A stretch of DNA of 64,000 bases, taken from the NCBI GenBank assembly GCA_949949005.1, contig CATLHM010000004.1:62001-126000 (forward strand), given 5' to 3'. The translations under genes and the position numbers were made by a program. Below are positions 29,342 to 38,316 of the stretch, in pieces. Each line of letters starts with the position of its first letter. Within the stretch, counting starts at the first letter, position 1. The notes under the pieces were generated by a model, which saw nothing but the letters and a program-made list of their open reading frames with translations, was not told the origin of the DNA and did no database searches. Source of the stretch: an uncultured Lachnospiraceae bacterium. GTDB taxonomy: Bacteria; Bacillota; Clostridia; Lachnospirales; Lachnospiraceae.

Positions 29342-31699
29342 ATGAGTACTACAATTAAAATTGTCTCAGCAGTATTAAAGGCGGTGGTAGGAGATAAGGT
29401 TGGGAGTGGATTAGTTCAGGATTTGATTGGAATTTCAATAGATGAGGCATCTGAAAAAAGCATAAATGAGATTGCGGACTTTATTGATAAAGAAAAATTT
29501 AAGATTGGCCGGATTCTTTCTGAAGAAAATTTGAAGTCTATGGGGATTTCAGAAAATAAAATTGATTATGTGATAGTTGAGATAAAGGATTTATTTTTTA
29601 AGGTTAGCATCACGGATGAAGTGCTTGAACAATGCAGATATGATAGCATGAATTTGAGTGCCTTTTTGTGGAATAAATATAGAGAATATAGAAATGATTA
29701 TATAGAATGTGAAAGCGAGATTAAACAATGCTTATTTGTTATTGCGGAAACAATAATTAAGTTAGTGCGAGAGAGTGAAGAATTTGAAAAGGATGTTTTG
29801 GTACAGATCAGTAATTCTGTTGATGACACTAATGCAGAATTACAGAATATATCTGGTTATTTGAAAGAGAATTTCAGTAAGCTGGATGATAACAGCCAAA
29901 TGGTACTGAATATTCTACTGAAGATTTTAGAGCAGATCCAGAAAATGAGTGTGAAGGATAATAAATTAAAAAACAGGGATTGTGAGAAGGAAAAGTTCCA
30001 AAATAATAAAAAGCAACAATATATTGATATTTGGAATGGTAGATTATTCCTTCATGCGGATACGGATGAAAACCCGTTAACTTTAGCAGATGCATTTATT
30101 ATGCCTGATTATGAGATACATAAGGCTATTCAGAAAATGCGCTATTCATATTCTGGTACACTGGACGGAATTATTAAAGAATTTGCAGAATATGAGAGAA
30201 CATCTACAATGCTTATTACAGGCGCCCCAGGTATAGGAAAATCAACTATTACTTCGTGGATGGCAAATAAGTATAAGGACGATGATCGGTTTATTATATT
30301 ACGGTTTCGTGATTGGGATAGCGAAGAATTGGAACAGGGATTGCAAAAGGCTATCTGTAATGAGTTGGAATGTGAAAACAAAGACTTGAATGATAAGATC
30401 TTGATTTTGGATGGATTCGATGAGATGAAATCGTTAGATATTCGCAATAGATTGCTCCATGTGTTTTTTAACGATATAAAGGATAGAAAAAATTTTAAGT
30501 GCATTATAACGTCAAGGCCAGCTTATATAGATTCGTCACACTTTCAAAATGTTATTGAACTTAAGGAATTTAATATAAATAAAGTAGATGCTTTCTACAG
30601 AAGTATGAAAGGGAGAGGGTTGACTGGAAGAGAAAAAATGGAGTTAAACTTGGAGGTGCTGGGGATTCCGGTAATATTATATATGGCTATTATGTCAGGC
30701 ATAGATATTAATGAAAACCACACTAAACCGGAGTTATATAACAAAATTTTTGCAGAGGAAGGAGGTATATTTGATAAGTTTTATGATGGCAAAAATGAAT
30801 ATAGTGAAGGTTCACAGATTATGAGGGATTCTGATAATATAGAAAAGTATTTAAAATTTTTGTGTGAGATTGCATACAAAATGTTTGCAGATAATAAGCA
30901 GAATTTAAAAACGGAAGCTTGTAAAGTTCCGGAATTAGTGTTCCAAAAAGATACGGTAAGTATTTTAGAATTTCCGATTAAGCATTTATTTGAGAATACA
31001 GAAACAAATATTGAATTTATTCATAAATCTATATATGAGTATTTTGTTTCTGAATTCATTTATATACATATCATTAAGAGAATAGGGCAATGCGGGGATA
31101 GAAATTATTTAGCCGGAGAAATTGCTGGCTTGCTAAACTGCAATCATTTATCAGAAGAAATCTGTGAGTTTTTAAAGTACAAGGTTAGTCAAAAAGCAAA
31201 TGTAAATTCATTTAACGGTGTTTTTGATACATTTAATTTAATGATACGTGATGGCATGACGTATCATATGGCCGATCGTTGTAAAAATATAATAAAGTGC
31301 GAAATGAATGTATTCGCTAATATGCTCGAAATTATACATCTGTGGAATAATGGGAATTTTGTGTTCGATAGTAAAATTTTCGATTACTTGAAATATAATT
31401 ATGGATATGAACTTAATTTGTCCGGAATTGATTTGGCAGGCAAAAACTTATCAAAGTTACTGCTAACTAATGTGAATTTAAGCAATGCAAGGTTGGATTC
31501 TGCAAATTTGGGAGGTATGGATTTAAGAAGTACAAAGTTTATAGGAGCAAGCATAGGTAACATTAATTTGGATGAGGCGATTTTAGACGGGGCGATATTC
31601 TCGGAGAGTCAAGTTACGTATTTGGATAAGAAATATAATCTATCTGGTATTAAAGTATATTGTAGTACAAATAATAAGGTATTAAATTATGAGTATTAA
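29342..31699 (+). CDS. NACHT-type STAND NTPase with pentapeptide repeats
   Basis: The product is 785 aa. A helical N-terminal region (about 1-225) has an amphipathic start ('IVSAVLKAVVGDKVGSGLVQ'). The NACHT NTPase follows, with Walker A 'GAPGIGKST' at 294-302, Walker B 'ILILDGFDEM' at 353-362, and the sensor 'IITSRPAY' at 388-395. A winged-helix/helical arm (about 430-580) includes 'IEFIHKSIYEYFVSEFIY', as in NACHT proteins. The C-terminus has pentapeptide-like repeats (about 690-755: 'LSGIDLAGKNLSKLLLTNVN', 'ARLDSANLGGMDLRST'). Bacterial NACHT proteins include many anti-phage sensors. The gene stands alone, is much more A+T-rich than its neighbours, and lies next to a tRNA, suggesting horizontal gain. 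The trigger and effector are not evident from sequence. Confidence 0.85.
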   Translation: MSTTIKIVSAVLKAVVGDKVGSGLVQDLIGISIDEASEKSINEIADFIDKEKFKIGRILSEENLKSMGISENKIDYVIVEIKDLFFKVSITDEVLEQCRYDSMNLSAFLWNKYREYRNDYIECESEIKQCLFVIAETIIKLVRESEEFEKDVLVQISNSVDDTNAELQNISGYLKENFSKLDDNSQMVLNILLKILEQIQKMSVKDNKLKNRDCEKEKFQNNKKQQYIDIWNGRLFLHADTDENPLTLADAFIMPDYEIHKAIQKMRYSYSGTLDGIIKEFAEYERTSTMLITGAPGIGKSTITSWMANKYKDDDRFIILRFRDWDSEELEQGLQKAICNELECENKDLNDKILILDGFDEMKSLDIRNRLLHVFFNDIKDRKNFKCIITSRPAYIDSSHFQNVIELKEFNINKVDAFYRSMKGRGLTGREKMELNLEVLGIPVILYMAIMSGIDINENHTKPELYNKIFAEEGGIFDKFYDGKNEYSEGSQIMRDSDNIEKYLKFLCEIAYKMFADNKQNLKTEACKVPELVFQKDTVSILEFPIKHLFENTETNIEFIHKSIYEYFVSEFIYIHIIKRIGQCGDRNYLAGEIAGLLNCNHLSEEICEFLKYKVSQKANVNSFNGVFDTFNLMIRDGMTYHMADRCKNIIKCEMNVFANMLEIIHLWNNGNFVFDSKIFDYLKYNYGYELNLSGIDLAGKNLSKLLLTNVNLSNARLDSANLGGMDLRSTKFIGASIGNINLDEAILDGAIFSESQVTYLDKKYNLSGIKVYCSTNNKVLNYEY

Positions 31700-31829
31700 A
31701 AATGATACAGCATTTGCACAGATTTGAAAGGACATTTTATAGGCAGAGAAAAAGCAGATATCAATCATAGTTTATAAATATTTCCTAATGGGAGATTGTA
31801 TTTCGCGGCTCCCCCGTTACCACAAAGAA

Positions 31830-31902
31830 TGGAGCATACGGGACTTGAACCCGTGACCTCCACACTGCCAGTGTGGCGCGCTCCCAACTGCGCTAATGCC
31901 CC
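31830..31902 (-). tRNA. tRNA-Ala (anticodon GGC)
   Basis: The minus strand folds as a standard 73-nt tRNA. Acceptor GGGGCAT/ATGCTCC carries the G3-U70 wobble pair that identifies alanine tRNAs. The anticodon arm CCACA-CTGGCAG-TGTGG has anticodon GGC, and the T arm is ACGGG-TTCAAGT-CCCGT. The 3' CCA is not encoded. Confidence 0.97.
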
Positions 31903-31910
31903 ATAAGAAA

Positions 31911-31938: not shown

Positions 31939-32047
31939 CAAAAAAATAATTGACAGAAATTTAGCACCAAAAACAACAAAAAGACTCATAATAACAGAAT
32001 AGATATATAATTAACAAATAATCAGACAATTTACCAAATATTCGTTA

Positions 32048-32076
32048 TTTACAACCGGTGAAAACAGGTGTATATT
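32048..32076 (+). promoter_or_regulatory. Sigma-A promoter for gltB
   Basis: TTTACA (32048-32053) and TATATT (32071-32076) are spaced by exactly 17 bp. The expected transcription start, about 32083, falls at the base of the leader hairpin. Confidence 0.75.
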
Positions 32077-32083
32077 ATAACAT

Positions 32084-32132
32084 ACAGGTCGCAAAGGAGC
32101 GTACAGGAGAGCCCCTTTGCGACCTGTTTTTT
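32084..32132 (+). terminator. Leader terminator (attenuator candidate) of gltB
   Basis: A perfect 14-bp stem (ACAGGTCGCAAAGG / CCTTTGCGACCTGT) is followed by six T, and starts about at +1 of the gltB promoter. It lies about 70 bases before the gltB start codon and has no T run on the other strand. It should stop most transcripts unless an antiterminator acts, or it defines a roughly 50-nt RNA. Confidence 0.75.
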
Positions 32133-32200
32133 CGTCCCATAAAATATCCGAAGCTTTTGTGGGACAAAAACAAACTCTTTTGAATAAGGAGGAAAAAGAC

Positions 32201-35200
32201 ATGTTTGATGTAAAAAATACTCATCCCAAGGCGCCCTTATACCGGCAGGAATTTGAGCATGATAACTGCGGGATCGGGGCCTGCGTGAATATGAAAGGGG
32301 TGAAGAGCCGGGAGACAGTGGTAAACGCCCTTAAGATTGTGGAAAATTTAGAGCATCGCGCCGGGAAGGACGCGGAGGGCAAAACCGGCGACGGGGTTGG
32401 AATCCTGACGCAGGTTCCCCATAAGTTTTTTAAGAAGGTGACGGCCCCTTTGGGGATTGCCATCGGAGGTGAGAGGGAGTACGGCGTCGGCATGTTCTTC
32501 TTTCCCCAGGAGGAGCTGCGCAAGAACCAGGCAAAAAAAATGTTTGAGATCATTGTGGAAAAGGAGGGGCTTACTTTCCTGGGGTGGCGGGAAGTGCCCA
32601 CCGAGCCTTCCGTGCTGGGGCATAAGGCTGTGGAGTGTATGCCTCATATCATGCAGGCCTTTATCAAAAAGCCGGCGGAGGTGGAGAAGGGGGTTGCCTT
32701 TGACCGGCTTCTGTATGTGGTGAGGCGGGTCTTTGAGCAGTCCTCGGACAATACCTATGTGGTGTCTTTATCCAGCCGGACCATCGTGTATAAGGGGATG
32801 TTTCTGGTAGGGCAGCTGCGCACCTTTTTTACGGATTTGCAGGATAAGGATTTCGAATCGGCCATTGCCATGGTGCATTCGCGTTTTTCCACCAACACCA
32901 ATCCAAGCTGGGAGCGGGCCCATCCCAACAGGTTTATCGTACATAACGGGGAGATCAACACCATCCGGGGCAATGCGGATAAGATGCTGGCTCGGGAGGA
33001 AAATATGGAGTCGGAGCATTTAAAGGGGCTTTTGCACAAGGTGCTTCCGGTGGTGAATACGGCGGGCTCCGATTCGGCCATGCTGGACAATACCCTGGAA
33101 TTTCTGGTGATGAGCGGTATGGATCTGCCGCTGGCGGTGATGATTACCATTCCCGAGCCCTGGGCCAACAACCAGACCATGTCTCAGCACAAAAGGGATT
33201 TTTATCAGTATTATGCGACCATGATGGAGCCCTGGGATGGCCCGGCCTCCATTCTGTTTTGCGACGGGGATGTGATGGGGGCCGTGCTTGACCGGAATGG
33301 CCTGCGGCCTTCCCGGTACATGATCACCGATGGCGATCAGCTTATTTTGTCCTCAGAGGTGGGGGTGCTGGACATTGACCCTGCCAGGATCCTGGTAAAG
33401 GAGCGGCTCCGCCCCGGCAAAATGCTGCTGGTGGATACGGTGAGAGGAAAAGTGATTGACGATGATGAGCTGAAGGAAACCTACGCCTCGAGGCAGCCCT
33501 ACGGGGAATGGCTGGATCGGAATCTGGTATATCTCCATGATCTGAAGATTCCCAATGAAAGGGTGCCGGAGTTTAGCCCCCAGGAGCGGCAGCGGATGCA
33601 GAAGGCTTTTGGCTATTCCTACGAGGAAGTCAAAAACAGCATCCTTCCCATGGCAAGAACGGGCGGGGAGGCCATTGCGGCCATGGGAGTGGATACCCCC
33701 CTTCCGGTGCTGAGCAAGACCCATCATCCTCTGTTTCATTATTTTAAGCAGCTTTTTGCCCAGGTGACCAATCCTCCCATCGACGCCATCCGGGAGGAGA
33801 TCGTGACCTCCACCACGGTTTATGTGGGAACGGACGGAAATATTTTGGAGGAGATTCCCAAGAACTGCAACATGCTCCGGGTGAATAACCCGATTTTGAC
33901 CAACACAGACCTGATGAAGATCAAGAGCATGAAAAAGGACGGCTTCAAGGTGGAGGTGATTCCCATTACCTATTACAAAAACACCAGACTGGAGAGGGCC
34001 ATTGACCGTCTCTTCGTGGAGGTGGATCGGGCATACCGGGACGGGGTGAATATTATGGTGCTTTCCGACCGGGGGGTGGACGAAAACCACGTGGCCATTC
34101 CTTCCCTGCTTGCCATTTCCGCCCTGAACCGGCATCTGGTGGTGACCAAGAAAAAAACCAGCGTGGCCCTGATCCTGGAGTCCGGGGAACCCAGGGAGGT
34201 TCACCACTTTGCCACCCTTTTGGGCTACGGGGCCTGCGCCATCAATCCCTATCTGGCCCAGGAATCCATCAAGGAGTTGATCGACTCCCATATGCTGGAT
34301 AAGGATTACTATGCGGCGGTGGAGGATTACAACAATGCCATTCTCCACGGTATTGTAAAGATTGCCTCCAAGATGGGGATCAGCACCATCCAGTCCTATG
34401 AGGGCTCCCAGATCTTTGAGGCTATTGGAATCGACAAGGAAGTGATCAACAAATATTTCCCTCATACGGTCTGCCGGGTTGGGGGTATTACATTGGAGGA
34501 CATTGAAAAGCAGGTGGACGATCTGCATTCCCAGGCCTTTGACCCCCTTGGGCTCGCCAATGACCTGACGCTGGATAGTCTGGGACACCACAAAATGCGC
34601 AGCGGGGCGGATGAGCATCTTTACAATCCGGCCACCATCCATCTGTTGCAGGAATCTACCAGAAGAGGGGATTACCAGCTTTTTAAAGAATATACCGCGC
34701 TGGTCAATGATGAAACTTCGGTAAAAAATCTCCGGGGGCTCATGGATTTCAATTTCCCTGAAAAGGGGGTTCCCATTGATGAGGTAGAAAGCGTGGATTC
34801 CATCGTGACCCGCTTCAAGACAGGAGCCATGTCTTACGGTTCCATCTCAAAGGAGGCCCATGAGACTATGGCAATCGCCATGAACCGTCTCCATGGCCGC
34901 TCCAACTCCGGGGAAGGGGGAGAGGAGCCGGAACGTCTTACGGTGGGGGCCGATGGGGTCAACAAATGCTCTGCCATCAAGCAGGTGGCCTCGGGACGGT
35001 TTGGGGTTACCAGCAGGTACTTAGTCAGCGCAGAGGAGATTCAGATCAAGATGGCTCAGGGAGCCAAGCCGGGAGAAGGGGGGCATCTGCCGGGAGGAAA
35101 AGTGTATCCCTGGATTGCCAAGACCAGACATTCCACGCCGGGGGTCAGCCTGATTTCCCCGCCGCCCCATCATGACATTTATTCCATAGAGGATTTGGCG

Positions 35201-36751
35201 GAGCTGATCTATGATCTGAAAAATGCCAACAAGCAGGCAAGGATCAGCGTGAAGCTGGTTTCCGAGGCGGGTGTGGGAACGGTAGCCGCCGGTGTGGCCA
35301 AGGCCGGGGCACAGGTGATTCTGGTTTCCGGTTATGACGGCGGTACGGGGGCGGCGCCCAGAAGTTCTATCCACAACGCAGGGCTTCCCTGGGAGCTGGG
35401 ACTGGCAGAAACCCATCAGACTCTGATTATGAACGGTCTTAGAAATAAAGTGAGGATCGAAACCGACGGAAAGCTTATGAGCGGCCGGGACGTGGCCATT
35501 GCGGCGATCCTAGGGGCGGAGGAGTTTGGCTTTGCAACGGCTCCCCTGGTAACCATGGGATGCGTCATGATGCGTGTCTGCAACCTGGATACCTGTCCGG
35601 TAGGCGTGGCTACCCAGAATCCGGAGTTGCGCAAAAATTTCCGGGGAAAGCCCGAATATGTGATGAACTTCATGCGCTTTATTGCCCAGGAGCTGCGGGA
35701 GTATATGGCAAGGCTGGGAGTGCGTAGCGTGGATGAGCTGGTGGGGCACACGGAGCTTCTCAGGGTCAGGGAGGACTTGACAGAACGCCAGAGCAAGGTG
35801 GACTTAAGCCAGATTCTCTCCAATCCCTATGCGGGAGGAAAAGAGAAAGTGACCTTTGATCCCAGGCAGGTTTATGACTTTAAGCTGGAAAACACAGCGG
35901 ACGAGAGGGTGTTGTTAAAGCAGCTCAACAAGTCCATTGACGCAGGAAGCAAACGCAGCCTCGAGGTGGACGTGAAAAATACGGACAGAGCTTTCGGCAC
36001 CATCCTTGGTTCGGAGATTACCAGAAGGCTTGGGGACGATTTGGAGGAAGATACCTACCGGGTGCTCTGCAGCGGGGCGGGAGGCCAGAGCTTCGGCGCT
36101 TTTATTCCCAGGGGACTTACCCTGGAGCTGGTAGGGGACAGCAACGATTACTTTGGAAAAGGGCTTTCCGGCGGAAAGCTGGTGGTTTATCCTCCCAAGG
36201 GAAGCCGTTTTAAGGCGGAGGAAAACATTATAATAGGAAACGTTGCGCTCTATGGGGCCACCAGCGGAAAGGCTTTTATAGGCGGCGTGGCGGGAGAGAG
36301 GTTCTGCGTGAGAAATTCCGGCGCTATTGCGGTGGTGGAGGGTGTAGGCGACCACGGCTGCGAGTACATGACGGGAGGCCGTGTGGTGGTGCTTGGCCCC
36401 ACAGGTAAGAATTTTGCGGCAGGCATGAGCGGCGGCATCGCCTATGTGCTGGATGAGGATAACGATCTGTATATCCGCCTGAATAAGGAGATGGTTTCCT
36501 CCTATGAAGTGACCTCCAAGTACGACGTAATCGAGCTGAAGGAAATGATCAAGGAGCATGTGGCTCTGACCAATTCCGCGAAAGGGAAGCTGATACTGGA
36601 TCATTTCAAGGAATATCTTCCTAAATTTAAGAAGATCATTCCCTATGATTATGAAAAGATTCTTACCAGCATCGTACAGATGGAAGAAAAGGGACTCAGT
36701 GCGCAGCAGGCGCAGATCGAGGCTTTTTATGCCATGAAGGCGGCGAAGTAA
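32201..36751 (+). CDS. gltB: Glutamate synthase, large subunit
   Basis: The start is ATG 32201 (MFDVKNTHPKAPLYRQ) after AAGGAGG; the ORF-track start lies in the terminator. The 1516-aa protein has the class II glutamine amidotransferase N-terminus, with the nucleophile after propeptide removal likely C23 in 'HDNCGIG'. A central FMN-binding TIM barrel ('SGEGGEEPERLTVGADGVNK', 'KPGEGGHLPGGKVYPWIAKT') follows, then the 3Fe-4S cysteines 'CVMMRVCNLDTC' (about residues 1120-1135) and the C-terminal beta-helix domain ('GKGLSGGKLVVYPPKGSRFK'). It makes glutamate from glutamine and 2-oxoglutarate together with GltD. Its strong promoter and leader terminator suggest nitrogen-dependent control. Confidence 0.97.
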   Translation: MFDVKNTHPKAPLYRQEFEHDNCGIGACVNMKGVKSRETVVNALKIVENLEHRAGKDAEGKTGDGVGILTQVPHKFFKKVTAPLGIAIGGEREYGVGMFFFPQEELRKNQAKKMFEIIVEKEGLTFLGWREVPTEPSVLGHKAVECMPHIMQAFIKKPAEVEKGVAFDRLLYVVRRVFEQSSDNTYVVSLSSRTIVYKGMFLVGQLRTFFTDLQDKDFESAIAMVHSRFSTNTNPSWERAHPNRFIVHNGEINTIRGNADKMLAREENMESEHLKGLLHKVLPVVNTAGSDSAMLDNTLEFLVMSGMDLPLAVMITIPEPWANNQTMSQHKRDFYQYYATMMEPWDGPASILFCDGDVMGAVLDRNGLRPSRYMITDGDQLILSSEVGVLDIDPARILVKERLRPGKMLLVDTVRGKVIDDDELKETYASRQPYGEWLDRNLVYLHDLKIPNERVPEFSPQERQRMQKAFGYSYEEVKNSILPMARTGGEAIAAMGVDTPLPVLSKTHHPLFHYFKQLFAQVTNPPIDAIREEIVTSTTVYVGTDGNILEEIPKNCNMLRVNNPILTNTDLMKIKSMKKDGFKVEVIPITYYKNTRLERAIDRLFVEVDRAYRDGVNIMVLSDRGVDENHVAIPSLLAISALNRHLVVTKKKTSVALILESGEPREVHHFATLLGYGACAINPYLAQESIKELIDSHMLDKDYYAAVEDYNNAILHGIVKIASKMGISTIQSYEGSQIFEAIGIDKEVINKYFPHTVCRVGGITLEDIEKQVDDLHSQAFDPLGLANDLTLDSLGHHKMRSGADEHLYNPATIHLLQESTRRGDYQLFKEYTALVNDETSVKNLRGLMDFNFPEKGVPIDEVESVDSIVTRFKTGAMSYGSISKEAHETMAIAMNRLHGRSNSGEGGEEPERLTVGADGVNKCSAIKQVASGRFGVTSRYLVSAEEIQIKMAQGAKPGEGGHLPGGKVYPWIAKTRHSTPGVSLISPPPHHDIYSIEDLAELIYDLKNANKQARISVKLVSEAGVGTVAAGVAKAGAQVILVSGYDGGTGAAPRSSIHNAGLPWELGLAETHQTLIMNGLRNKVRIETDGKLMSGRDVAIAAILGAEEFGFATAPLVTMGCVMMRVCNLDTCPVGVATQNPELRKNFRGKPEYVMNFMRFIAQELREYMARLGVRSVDELVGHTELLRVREDLTERQSKVDLSQILSNPYAGGKEKVTFDPRQVYDFKLENTADERVLLKQLNKSIDAGSKRSLEVDVKNTDRAFGTILGSEITRRLGDDLEEDTYRVLCSGAGGQSFGAFIPRGLTLELVGDSNDYFGKGLSGGKLVVYPPKGSRFKAEENIIIGNVALYGATSGKAFIGGVAGERFCVRNSGAIAVVEGVGDHGCEYMTGGRVVVLGPTGKNFAAGMSGGIAYVLDEDNDLYIRLNKEMVSSYEVTSKYDVIELKEMIKEHVALTNSAKGKLILDHFKEYLPKFKKIIPYDYEKILTSIVQMEEKGLSAQQAQIEAFYAMKAAK

Positions 36752-36831: not shown

Positions 36832-38316
36832 ATGGGTAAACCAACCGGATTTATGGATTATAAAAGAGAGGTATCAAAGGACAGAAGCCCCAGGGAAAGG
36901 ATCAGGGATTTTCAGGAATTTCACGAGCATCTTCCCAGGGAGCGGCAGCAGCTCCAGGGAGCCAGGTGTATGGAGTGCGGCGTCCCTTTCTGCCAGTCGG
37001 GAATGACCATCTGCGGCATGACCAGCGGCTGTCCGCTGCACAATCTGGTGCCAGAGTGGAATGATCTGGTCTATATCGGAAACTGGGAGCAGGCCTACAA
37101 CCGCCTGGTGAAGACCAACAGCTTCCCGGAATTTACTTCCCGGGTATGTCCGGCCCTGTGTGAGGCGGCCTGCACCTGCGGCCTCATCGGGGAACCGGTG
37201 GCAACCAGAGAGAATGAGTATGCCATCATCGAAAATGCTTACGAAAAAGGATATGCCGACCCGAGACCGCCCAAGGTTAGGACGGGAAAGACTGTGGCCG
37301 TGGTGGGGAGCGGCCCCTCGGGCCTTGCGGTGGCAGACCAGCTCAACAAGCGGGGGCACAGCGTTACGGTCTTTGAGCGCTCCGACCGTGTGGGAGGACT
37401 TCTCATGTACGGCATTCCCAACATGAAGCTGGAAAAGCAGGTTGTGGAGCGGAAGATCAAGGTGATGGAGGCGGAGGGCGTTACCTTCGTCACAGGTACG
37501 GATGTGGGAAAGGATCTGAAAGCGGAAAAGCTGCTGAAGGATTTTGACCGGGTGGTGCTTGCCTGCGGCGCCTCCAATCCAAGGGACATAAACGCCCCGG
37601 GGCGGGATGCCAAGGGAATTTACTTTGCGGTGGATTTCCTGAAAGCGAACACAAAGAGCCTTTTGGACTCAAATTTCCAGGACGGAAAGTTTGTAAGCAC
37701 CAAGGGTAAAAACGTGGTGATCATCGGCGGCGGCGATACCGGAAACGACTGTGTGGGCACCAGTATCCGCCACGGCTGTAAGTCCGTGACCCAGATCGAG
37801 ATGATGCCCAAAGCGCCGGATCAGCGCGCGGAAAACAACCGCTGGCCGGAGTGGCCGAAAATCTGCAAGACCGATTACGGCCAGGAGGAGGCCATCGCTC
37901 TCTTCGGACACGACCCGCGTATCTATGAGGCCACCGTGAAAGAGTTCGTGAAGGACAAAAACGGAAACTTGAAAGCGGTTAAGATCGTAAAGCTTTCCTG
38001 GGAGAAGGAGCCGGAGACAGGACGCATGAAGATGACCGAGATCCCAGGCTCCGAGCAGACCCTTCCCGCAGAGATCGTGCTGATCGCCGCAGGCTTTCTG
38101 GGGAGCCAGAAGTATGTGACGGACGCCTTTAAGGTGAACCTGGATAAGAGAACCAATGTGAGTACCGCACCGGGGCAGTATGAGACTTCGGTGAAAAATG
38201 TGTTTGCCGCCGGGGACATGCACCGGGGACAGTCTTTGGTGGTGTGGGCCATCCGGGAGGGAAGACAGGCCGCAAGGGCAGTGGATGAGAGTTTGATGGG
38301 GTATACGAATTTGTGA
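36832..38316 (+). CDS. gltD: Glutamate synthase, small subunit
   Basis: The 494-aa protein begins at ATG 36832 with AAAGGAG about 13 bases upstream. The N-terminal [4Fe-4S] region carries 'CMECGVPFCQ', 'GCPLHN' and 'CPALCEAACTCGL'. FAD-binding 'VAVVGSGPSGLAVADQLNKR' (about 152-171) and NADPH-binding 'VVIIGGGDTGNDCVGTSIRH' (about 296-315) Rossmann motifs follow, and a C-terminal FAD segment 'NVFAAGDMHRGQSLVVWAIR'. It feeds electrons from NADPH to GltB. It is 80 bases after gltB in the same operon. Confidence 0.97.
   Translation: MGKPTGFMDYKREVSKDRSPRERIRDFQEFHEHLPRERQQLQGARCMECGVPFCQSGMTICGMTSGCPLHNLVPEWNDLVYIGNWEQAYNRLVKTNSFPEFTSRVCPALCEAACTCGLIGEPVATRENEYAIIENAYEKGYADPRPPKVRTGKTVAVVGSGPSGLAVADQLNKRGHSVTVFERSDRVGGLLMYGIPNMKLEKQVVERKIKVMEAEGVTFVTGTDVGKDLKAEKLLKDFDRVVLACGASNPRDINAPGRDAKGIYFAVDFLKANTKSLLDSNFQDGKFVSTKGKNVVIIGGGDTGNDCVGTSIRHGCKSVTQIEMMPKAPDQRAENNRWPEWPKICKTDYGQEEAIALFGHDPRIYEATVKEFVKDKNGNLKAVKIVKLSWEKEPETGRMKMTEIPGSEQTLPAEIVLIAAGFLGSQKYVTDAFKVNLDKRTNVSTAPGQYETSVKNVFAAGDMHRGQSLVVWAIREGRQAARAVDESLMGYTNL

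Follow-up and report, generated by a model that had tools for sequence, protein, structure and literature searches.

The closest described systems to the leader studied here are the attenuators controlled by ANTAR proteins. Mutations in E. faecalis eutP showed that a hexaloop whose first base is A and whose fourth is G (A1/G4), in the hairpin overlapping the terminator, was needed for the ANTAR protein EutV, and that both hexaloops of this leader were required (PMC3369931). The paper on the structure of EutV argued that the minimal ANTAR binding unit is a single hexaloop, though attenuation still needs two (Walshe et al., 2022, PMC8934654). Single-hexaloop sites were supposed by the same authors to occur where the polymerase imposes no time limit, and work on them was called for (PMC8934654). 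Control by NitR and Clo1313_2030 was ascribed to an antiterminator plus antisense RNA, and the passage of the source that deals with them does not describe a hexaloop element (PMC4676874).

The leader of gltB was analyzed in a window of 64,000 nucleotides, the whole stretch of DNA under study, from an uncultured Lachnospiraceae bacterium. The features of the locus were as follows:

32009-32031, + strand: conserved imperfect palindrome AATTAACAAATAATCAGACAATT upstream of the gltB promoter, candidate transcription-factor site
32048-32076, + strand: gltB promoter, with -35 TTTACA (32048-32053), a 17-nt spacer, and -10 TATATT (32071-32076)
32084-32127, + strand: intrinsic terminator stem-loop, arms 32084-32097 and 32114-32127
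32090-32101, + strand: ANTAR-type mini-hairpin CGC[AAAGGA]GCG, stem C90G91C92/G99C100G101, hexaloop A93-A98
32105-32116, + strand: possible second hexaloop AGG[AGAGCC]CCT, with A1/G4
32127-32132, + strand: terminator U-tract, from the sequence
32134-32165, + strand: second hairpin of the 5' UTR, 11-bp arms with one G-U
32186-32192, + strand: Shine-Dalgarno sequence AAGGAGG
32201-36751, + strand: gltB, glutamate synthase large subunit (GATase_2, Glu_syn_central, Glu_synthase, GXGXG)
36832-38316, + strand: gltD, glutamate synthase small subunit (Fer4_20, Pyr_redox_2)

The palindrome at 32009-32031 looks like a regulator operator. The half-site motif of its consensus, AAATTGTCAAATWATCTGACAATTT, was present in 82 of 95 gltB leaders, and in 77 of these it lay 17-18 nt upstream of the -35 hexamer. 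The palindrome was also seen in several gltB leaders that have no hexaloop. Further upstream, a tRNA-Ala(GGC) gene at 31829-31903 (- strand) is divergent from gltB. An ORF of 785 aa at 29342-31699, in AT-rich sequence that separates a membrane-protease-like gene from the tRNA, encodes a P-loop-like NTPase motif and, toward its C terminus, pentapeptide-like repeats; it looks foreign. In some relatives (e.g., L103 and L003), the end of a tRNA or of a CPBP-protease-like gene was found upstream of gltB.

The promoter-like site matched the consensus at 10 of 12 positions. The predicted +1 was at about 32083, and the position and spacing of the promoter were kept in relatives. The terminator stem is a perfect 14-bp helix that begins 7 nt past the -10 hexamer, at about +1. 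Its folding energy was -28.3 kcal/mol (z = -6.15), and none of 200 shuffled sequences folded equally well. The terminator scan of the window did not report the stem-loop at 32084-32127 because its loop is about 16 nt and the scan accepted a maximum of 8 nt. Sequence, fold, and conservation thus all bore out the claim of the earlier note that a perfect 14-bp terminator stands at the promoter +1 before gltB. The second 5'-UTR hairpin was absent from the closest relatives read, and the UTR of L099 differs at that place. Repeated REP-like hairpins of the AATAAGCTGTCCGCGAAGCGTGGCAGCG type were noticed in the 5' UTRs of gltB and glnA, past the terminator and before the start codon, in several congeners (L118, L120, L121, and L286), and the 5' UTR of L115 has longer tandem repeats at the same place.

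A terminator before a biosynthetic operon could also belong to attenuation by a leader peptide, a T-box, or a riboswitch. The gap between +1 and the terminator is too short for a leader ORF or an aptamer, and apart from the tRNA gene no Rfam family reached the gathering threshold in the window; relaxed thresholds gave only chance-level matches, with no riboswitch or leader family among them. The probability of such attenuation is close to nil.

The 5' arm of the terminator has the sequence GGTCGCAAAGGAGCG, and CGC[AAAGGA]GCG lies inside it as a 3-bp mini-hairpin with A1 at position 93 and G4 at position 96. The arm takes in the 5' strand of the mini-hairpin stem together with most bases of the loop, so the hexaloop and terminator folds are mutually exclusive. 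When the RNA was folded length by length, the hexaloop was present once about 22 nt had been reached, and the terminator became dominant at about 37-40 nt. The element agrees with known ANTAR target RNA in a stem of at least 3 bp (CGC/GCG in the window, varied stems elsewhere and at glnA), in the loop bases A1 and G4, and in the overlap of the hexaloop (P2) with an intrinsic terminator. The earlier note had seen no room for an antiterminator helix. There is none upstream of the terminator, as it held, but one is present inside the 5' arm of the terminator itself.

The conservation of this element was investigated in two ways. Thirty leaders of the window's genus were gathered via GltB protein homology, independent of leader sequence, and the hexaloop element stood directly after the same promoter in 30/30 of those read. 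A pattern scan across GTDB matched 101 stretches; 80 were fetched, and 79 of them lay directly upstream of gltB, the remaining one being a contig end. The layout of a promoter with a terminator at +1 before gltB is far beyond chance, since it was kept in both sets. A leader not conserved in relatives would have spoken against the proposal of the earlier note, and the leader was found to be conserved throughout the genus set. A direct DNA similarity search with the leader across the family found little, and protein-anchored and pattern searches were needed. The element was missing from gltB in many members of the family.

In 54 aligned elements, GC-A1A2-G4-GCG was invariant, and loop positions 3, 5, and 6 drifted; this alignment and the GTDB pattern were selected on the loop sequence, and the unbiased test is that of the 30 genus leaders. 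Loop position 3 was A, T, or C, and the 3' arm of the terminator changed to match. The pairs between them were AU in 35 elements, UA in 9, and CG in 2, and 12 sequences were altered on both sides. Over the whole terminator stem, 41 double-change cells were counted versus 11.2 in shuffles. Paired cells made up 97.1% of the stem alignment, and about 50% or less when the alignment was slid. The three base pairs of the mini-hairpin were constant throughout the 54-element set; support for them comes from the other stems found in other lineages.

On this alignment, a plain terminator would account for the covariation, but not for why certain loop positions and the GCG never change. A constitutive terminator that merely limits gltB expression or yields a functional RNA of about 50 nt, with no antiterminator, is consistent with the great stability of the terminator alone. 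It leaves unexplained the invariance of loop positions 1, 2, and 4 and of the GCG outside the stem, the differing stems around the same loop, and the enrichment of nitrogen genes described below, and was judged very improbable.

The number of hexaloops was then considered. The ANTAR attenuators studied so far are dual, and the window can fold AGG[AGAGCC]CCT with A1/G4, so a dual-hexaloop attenuator could be proposed here, with this second loop downstream or with one upstream if the true start lay further 5'. The distance from the assumed +1 to the stem was 3-9 nt in 93/94 gltB elements, and no upstream hexaloop fits in such a space. The promoter and this spacing were conserved, and the glnA hairpin begins exactly 6 nt past its -10. 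A second downstream A1/G4 hexaloop was found in 6/94 elements, with no enrichment over other signatures and fewer cases than several of them. Any second hexaloop at all was present in 5/45 broader leaders, with varied and weak stems. A dual-hexaloop attenuator is therefore improbable. The closest relative read, L099, cannot form an equivalent of 32105-32116, and this candidate loop was judged to be a chance fold that is not conserved.

The single-hexaloop element was also found in other genera. A set of 125 gltB leaders, for the most part a single one from each genus, contained C-AANGRN-G 67 times in sense and 15 times in antisense orientation. Of the 67 sense occurrences, 45 also pair at the next two flanking positions, through a wide variety of unrelated stems. 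The stems across genera included GAAC/GTTC, GAC/GTC, ATGC/GCAT, CTGGC/GCCGG, and TAAGCC/GGCTTA. Most of these elements start 4-15 nt past the best -10. The glnA leaders of the window's genus (17 leaders) carried GAAC[AAAGGC]GTTC exactly 6 nt past the -10 of a TTGACA-17-TATNAT-like promoter. The glnA hexaloop stem showed AU-to-GC changes among leaders, and its terminator is built from the loop and the 3' strand of the loop. About half of the glnA regions read in other genera had the same plan. Covariance models of the gltB and glnA elements recovered leaders of both genes; the glnA-type model had additional matches immediately before gltB in other genera.

A gene-agnostic scan for a promoter plus C-AANGRN-G was performed over 123 genomes of class Clostridia, followed by stem and terminator checks. 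The nitrogen targets were amtB (ammonium transporters), gdhA, glnA, and glutamine synthetases I and III, in a gene list that is not a random sample, as the loci read were partly hand-picked for non-Shine-Dalgarno sequence. Further targets were purF, purA, purB, purC, pyrG, nadE, dapF, a GatD-like amidotransferase, and glutamate-synthase-like class II amidotransferases, some of the amidotransferase calls (L500, L507, L512, L516) being based on sequence likeness with no Pfam match at the cut-off used. The few others were a PPDK-like gene, atpB, and unknowns. Loci with a single hexaloop and a terminator at +1 were L461, L462, L464, L473, L474, L480, L488, L489, L491, L493, L494, and L500-L516. 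Scan matches without a stem or terminator were mainly ribosome-binding sites, tRNAs, and unrelated genes. The single-hexaloop leaders across Clostridia likely form a nitrogen regulon.

The earlier note had called the arrangement an unusual design for a nitrogen-assimilation operon. This view did not hold, since the design is conserved in these bacteria and recurs at glnA, amtB, gdhA, and other genes. What is unusual in the gltB leader is that one hexaloop is apparently sufficient. Separately, CGC[AAAGGN]GCG with a terminator was observed in other genera before genes other than gltB: an amino-acid ABC binding protein, a peptide ABC permease, a fumarase/aspartase-like lyase, and an unknown ORF (at L311, L313, L322, and L325).

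A gene for an ANTAR protein, about 185-200 codons long, was present in 264/299 genomes of the family and was usually the only one per genome. The look for ANTAR genes advised in the earlier note succeeded in the genus, with the gene in 36/38 genomes and directly after glnA in most congeners examined; it failed in the window's own assembly (59% complete), where the cognate glnA is also missing and only a 47% paralogue was found. Co-occurrence of ANTAR gene and element across the family was not discriminating because the gene is near-universal there. The congener protein matched PF03861 at 63.5 bits (cut-off 27.3) and was similar to EutV (6wsh/6ww6), Rv1626, 1s8n, NasR, and AmiR. Among 48 aligned homologues, the EutV RNA-contact residues K149 and E160 were invariant, R142, K143, and K147 were variable, and the position of Y164 was His in 45. 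The phospho-acceptor position was not Asp in the aligned homologues (CGYK-type motif), which differs from the phosphorylatable receiver of EutV. On the basis of this residue, the protein is classed as an AmiR-like pseudo-receiver, and phosphorylation is therefore unlikely as the signal.

The adjacency of the ANTAR gene to glnA, together with the pseudo-receiver, gives some room for another RNA-binding factor, or a complex of glutamine synthetase with the ANTAR protein, as the reader of the hexaloop in place of the ANTAR protein alone. The A1/G4 specificity and the nitrogen-gene targets fit an ANTAR protein, of which there is typically one per genome, and a different reader is quite improbable.

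The best reading of the gltB leader, at a probability of roughly 85%, is a nitrogen attenuator of the ANTAR type whose single hexaloop stands at the very 5' end of the RNA; that an ANTAR protein binds, in which direction it regulates, and that nitrogen is the signal are what we infer in it. The basis of this reading is the sequence, the conservation, the mutual exclusivity of the two folds, the covariation, the lack of a conserved second hexaloop, and the recurrence at nitrogen genes. By default, the nascent RNA would fold the mini-hairpin CGC[AAAGGA]GCG first. About 20 nt later the stronger 14-bp terminator would replace this fold, ending transcription at a length of about 50 nt. Under a demand for nitrogen assimilation, an ANTAR protein would bind the hexaloop via A1/G4 and stabilize the mini-hairpin. 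The bound hexaloop would withhold its strand from the terminator, and the polymerase would proceed into gltBD. Thus, gltB would be off with the ANTAR protein inactive, and gltBD would be transcribed with it active. As in known ANTAR antitermination, the protein is taken to be an activator. The signal is likely nitrogen status, possibly sensed via glutamine synthetase.

Among the ways of readthrough named in the earlier note, a protein antiterminator is upheld as the likely solution, presumably of the ANTAR type; a processive mechanism or a functional short RNA need not be invoked, as the antiterminator helix lies inside the 5' arm of the terminator. A wider reading is held tentatively and is somewhat doubtful. 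It proposes one class-wide clostridial regulon (glnA, gltBD, amtB, gdhA, GS-III, and glutamine amidotransferases) with single-hexaloop attenuators at +1 and one pseudo-receiver ANTAR protein, whose activity would depend on a partner, for instance the glutamine synthetase encoded next to it, and not on phosphorylation. If this is true, the lack of a P1 recruitment hairpin leaves the protein only the first ~40 nt in which to act, and it may already be associated with the initiating polymerase.

Leaders of the gltB type look like natural, widely conserved single-hexaloop attenuators, and a literature search of incomplete coverage found no paper describing them. The importance of single-hexaloop sites was left open by the EutV structure paper (PMC8934654), and these leaders make the question directly testable. 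Moreover, they could explain in simple molecular terms how ammonium assimilation is switched in Lachnospiraceae and other Clostridia, which are major gut bacteria. A promoter, a C-AANGRN-G hexaloop, and a terminator together give a search rule for sites that dual-hairpin models would miss.

The patAB leader (RF02907) is short and has little beyond a terminator. The gltB leader matched it weakly, with 17.9 bits versus a gathering score of 92. The predicted ANTAR regulons of Desulfotomaculum (Ramesh 2012) have the same target classes (glutamate synthase, PII, and ammonium transporters), but were found with a dual-hairpin model, whereas the elements here are single-hairpin. NitR (glnA of solventogenic Clostridium) and Clo1313_2030 (C. 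thermocellum) are ANTAR proteins encoded beside glutamine synthetase or glutamate synthase genes, as here. In E. faecalis eutP/EutV, Klebsiella nasF/NasR, and Pseudomonas amiE/AmiR, an A1/G4 hexaloop mini-hairpin overlaps an intrinsic terminator as in the gltB leader, and the targets are likewise nitrogen-related. Compared with the dual-hexaloop attenuators, the gltB leader has the P2-type hexaloop only, with no P1 recruitment hexaloop, and its hairpin starts 3-9 nt after +1. The gltB element lacks the two mini-hairpins with a short linker that define ANTAR target RNA (Ramesh 2012), and it agrees with the other sequence and structure criteria. Therefore, it is a variant of ANTAR target RNA that would work like one, outside the class as defined.
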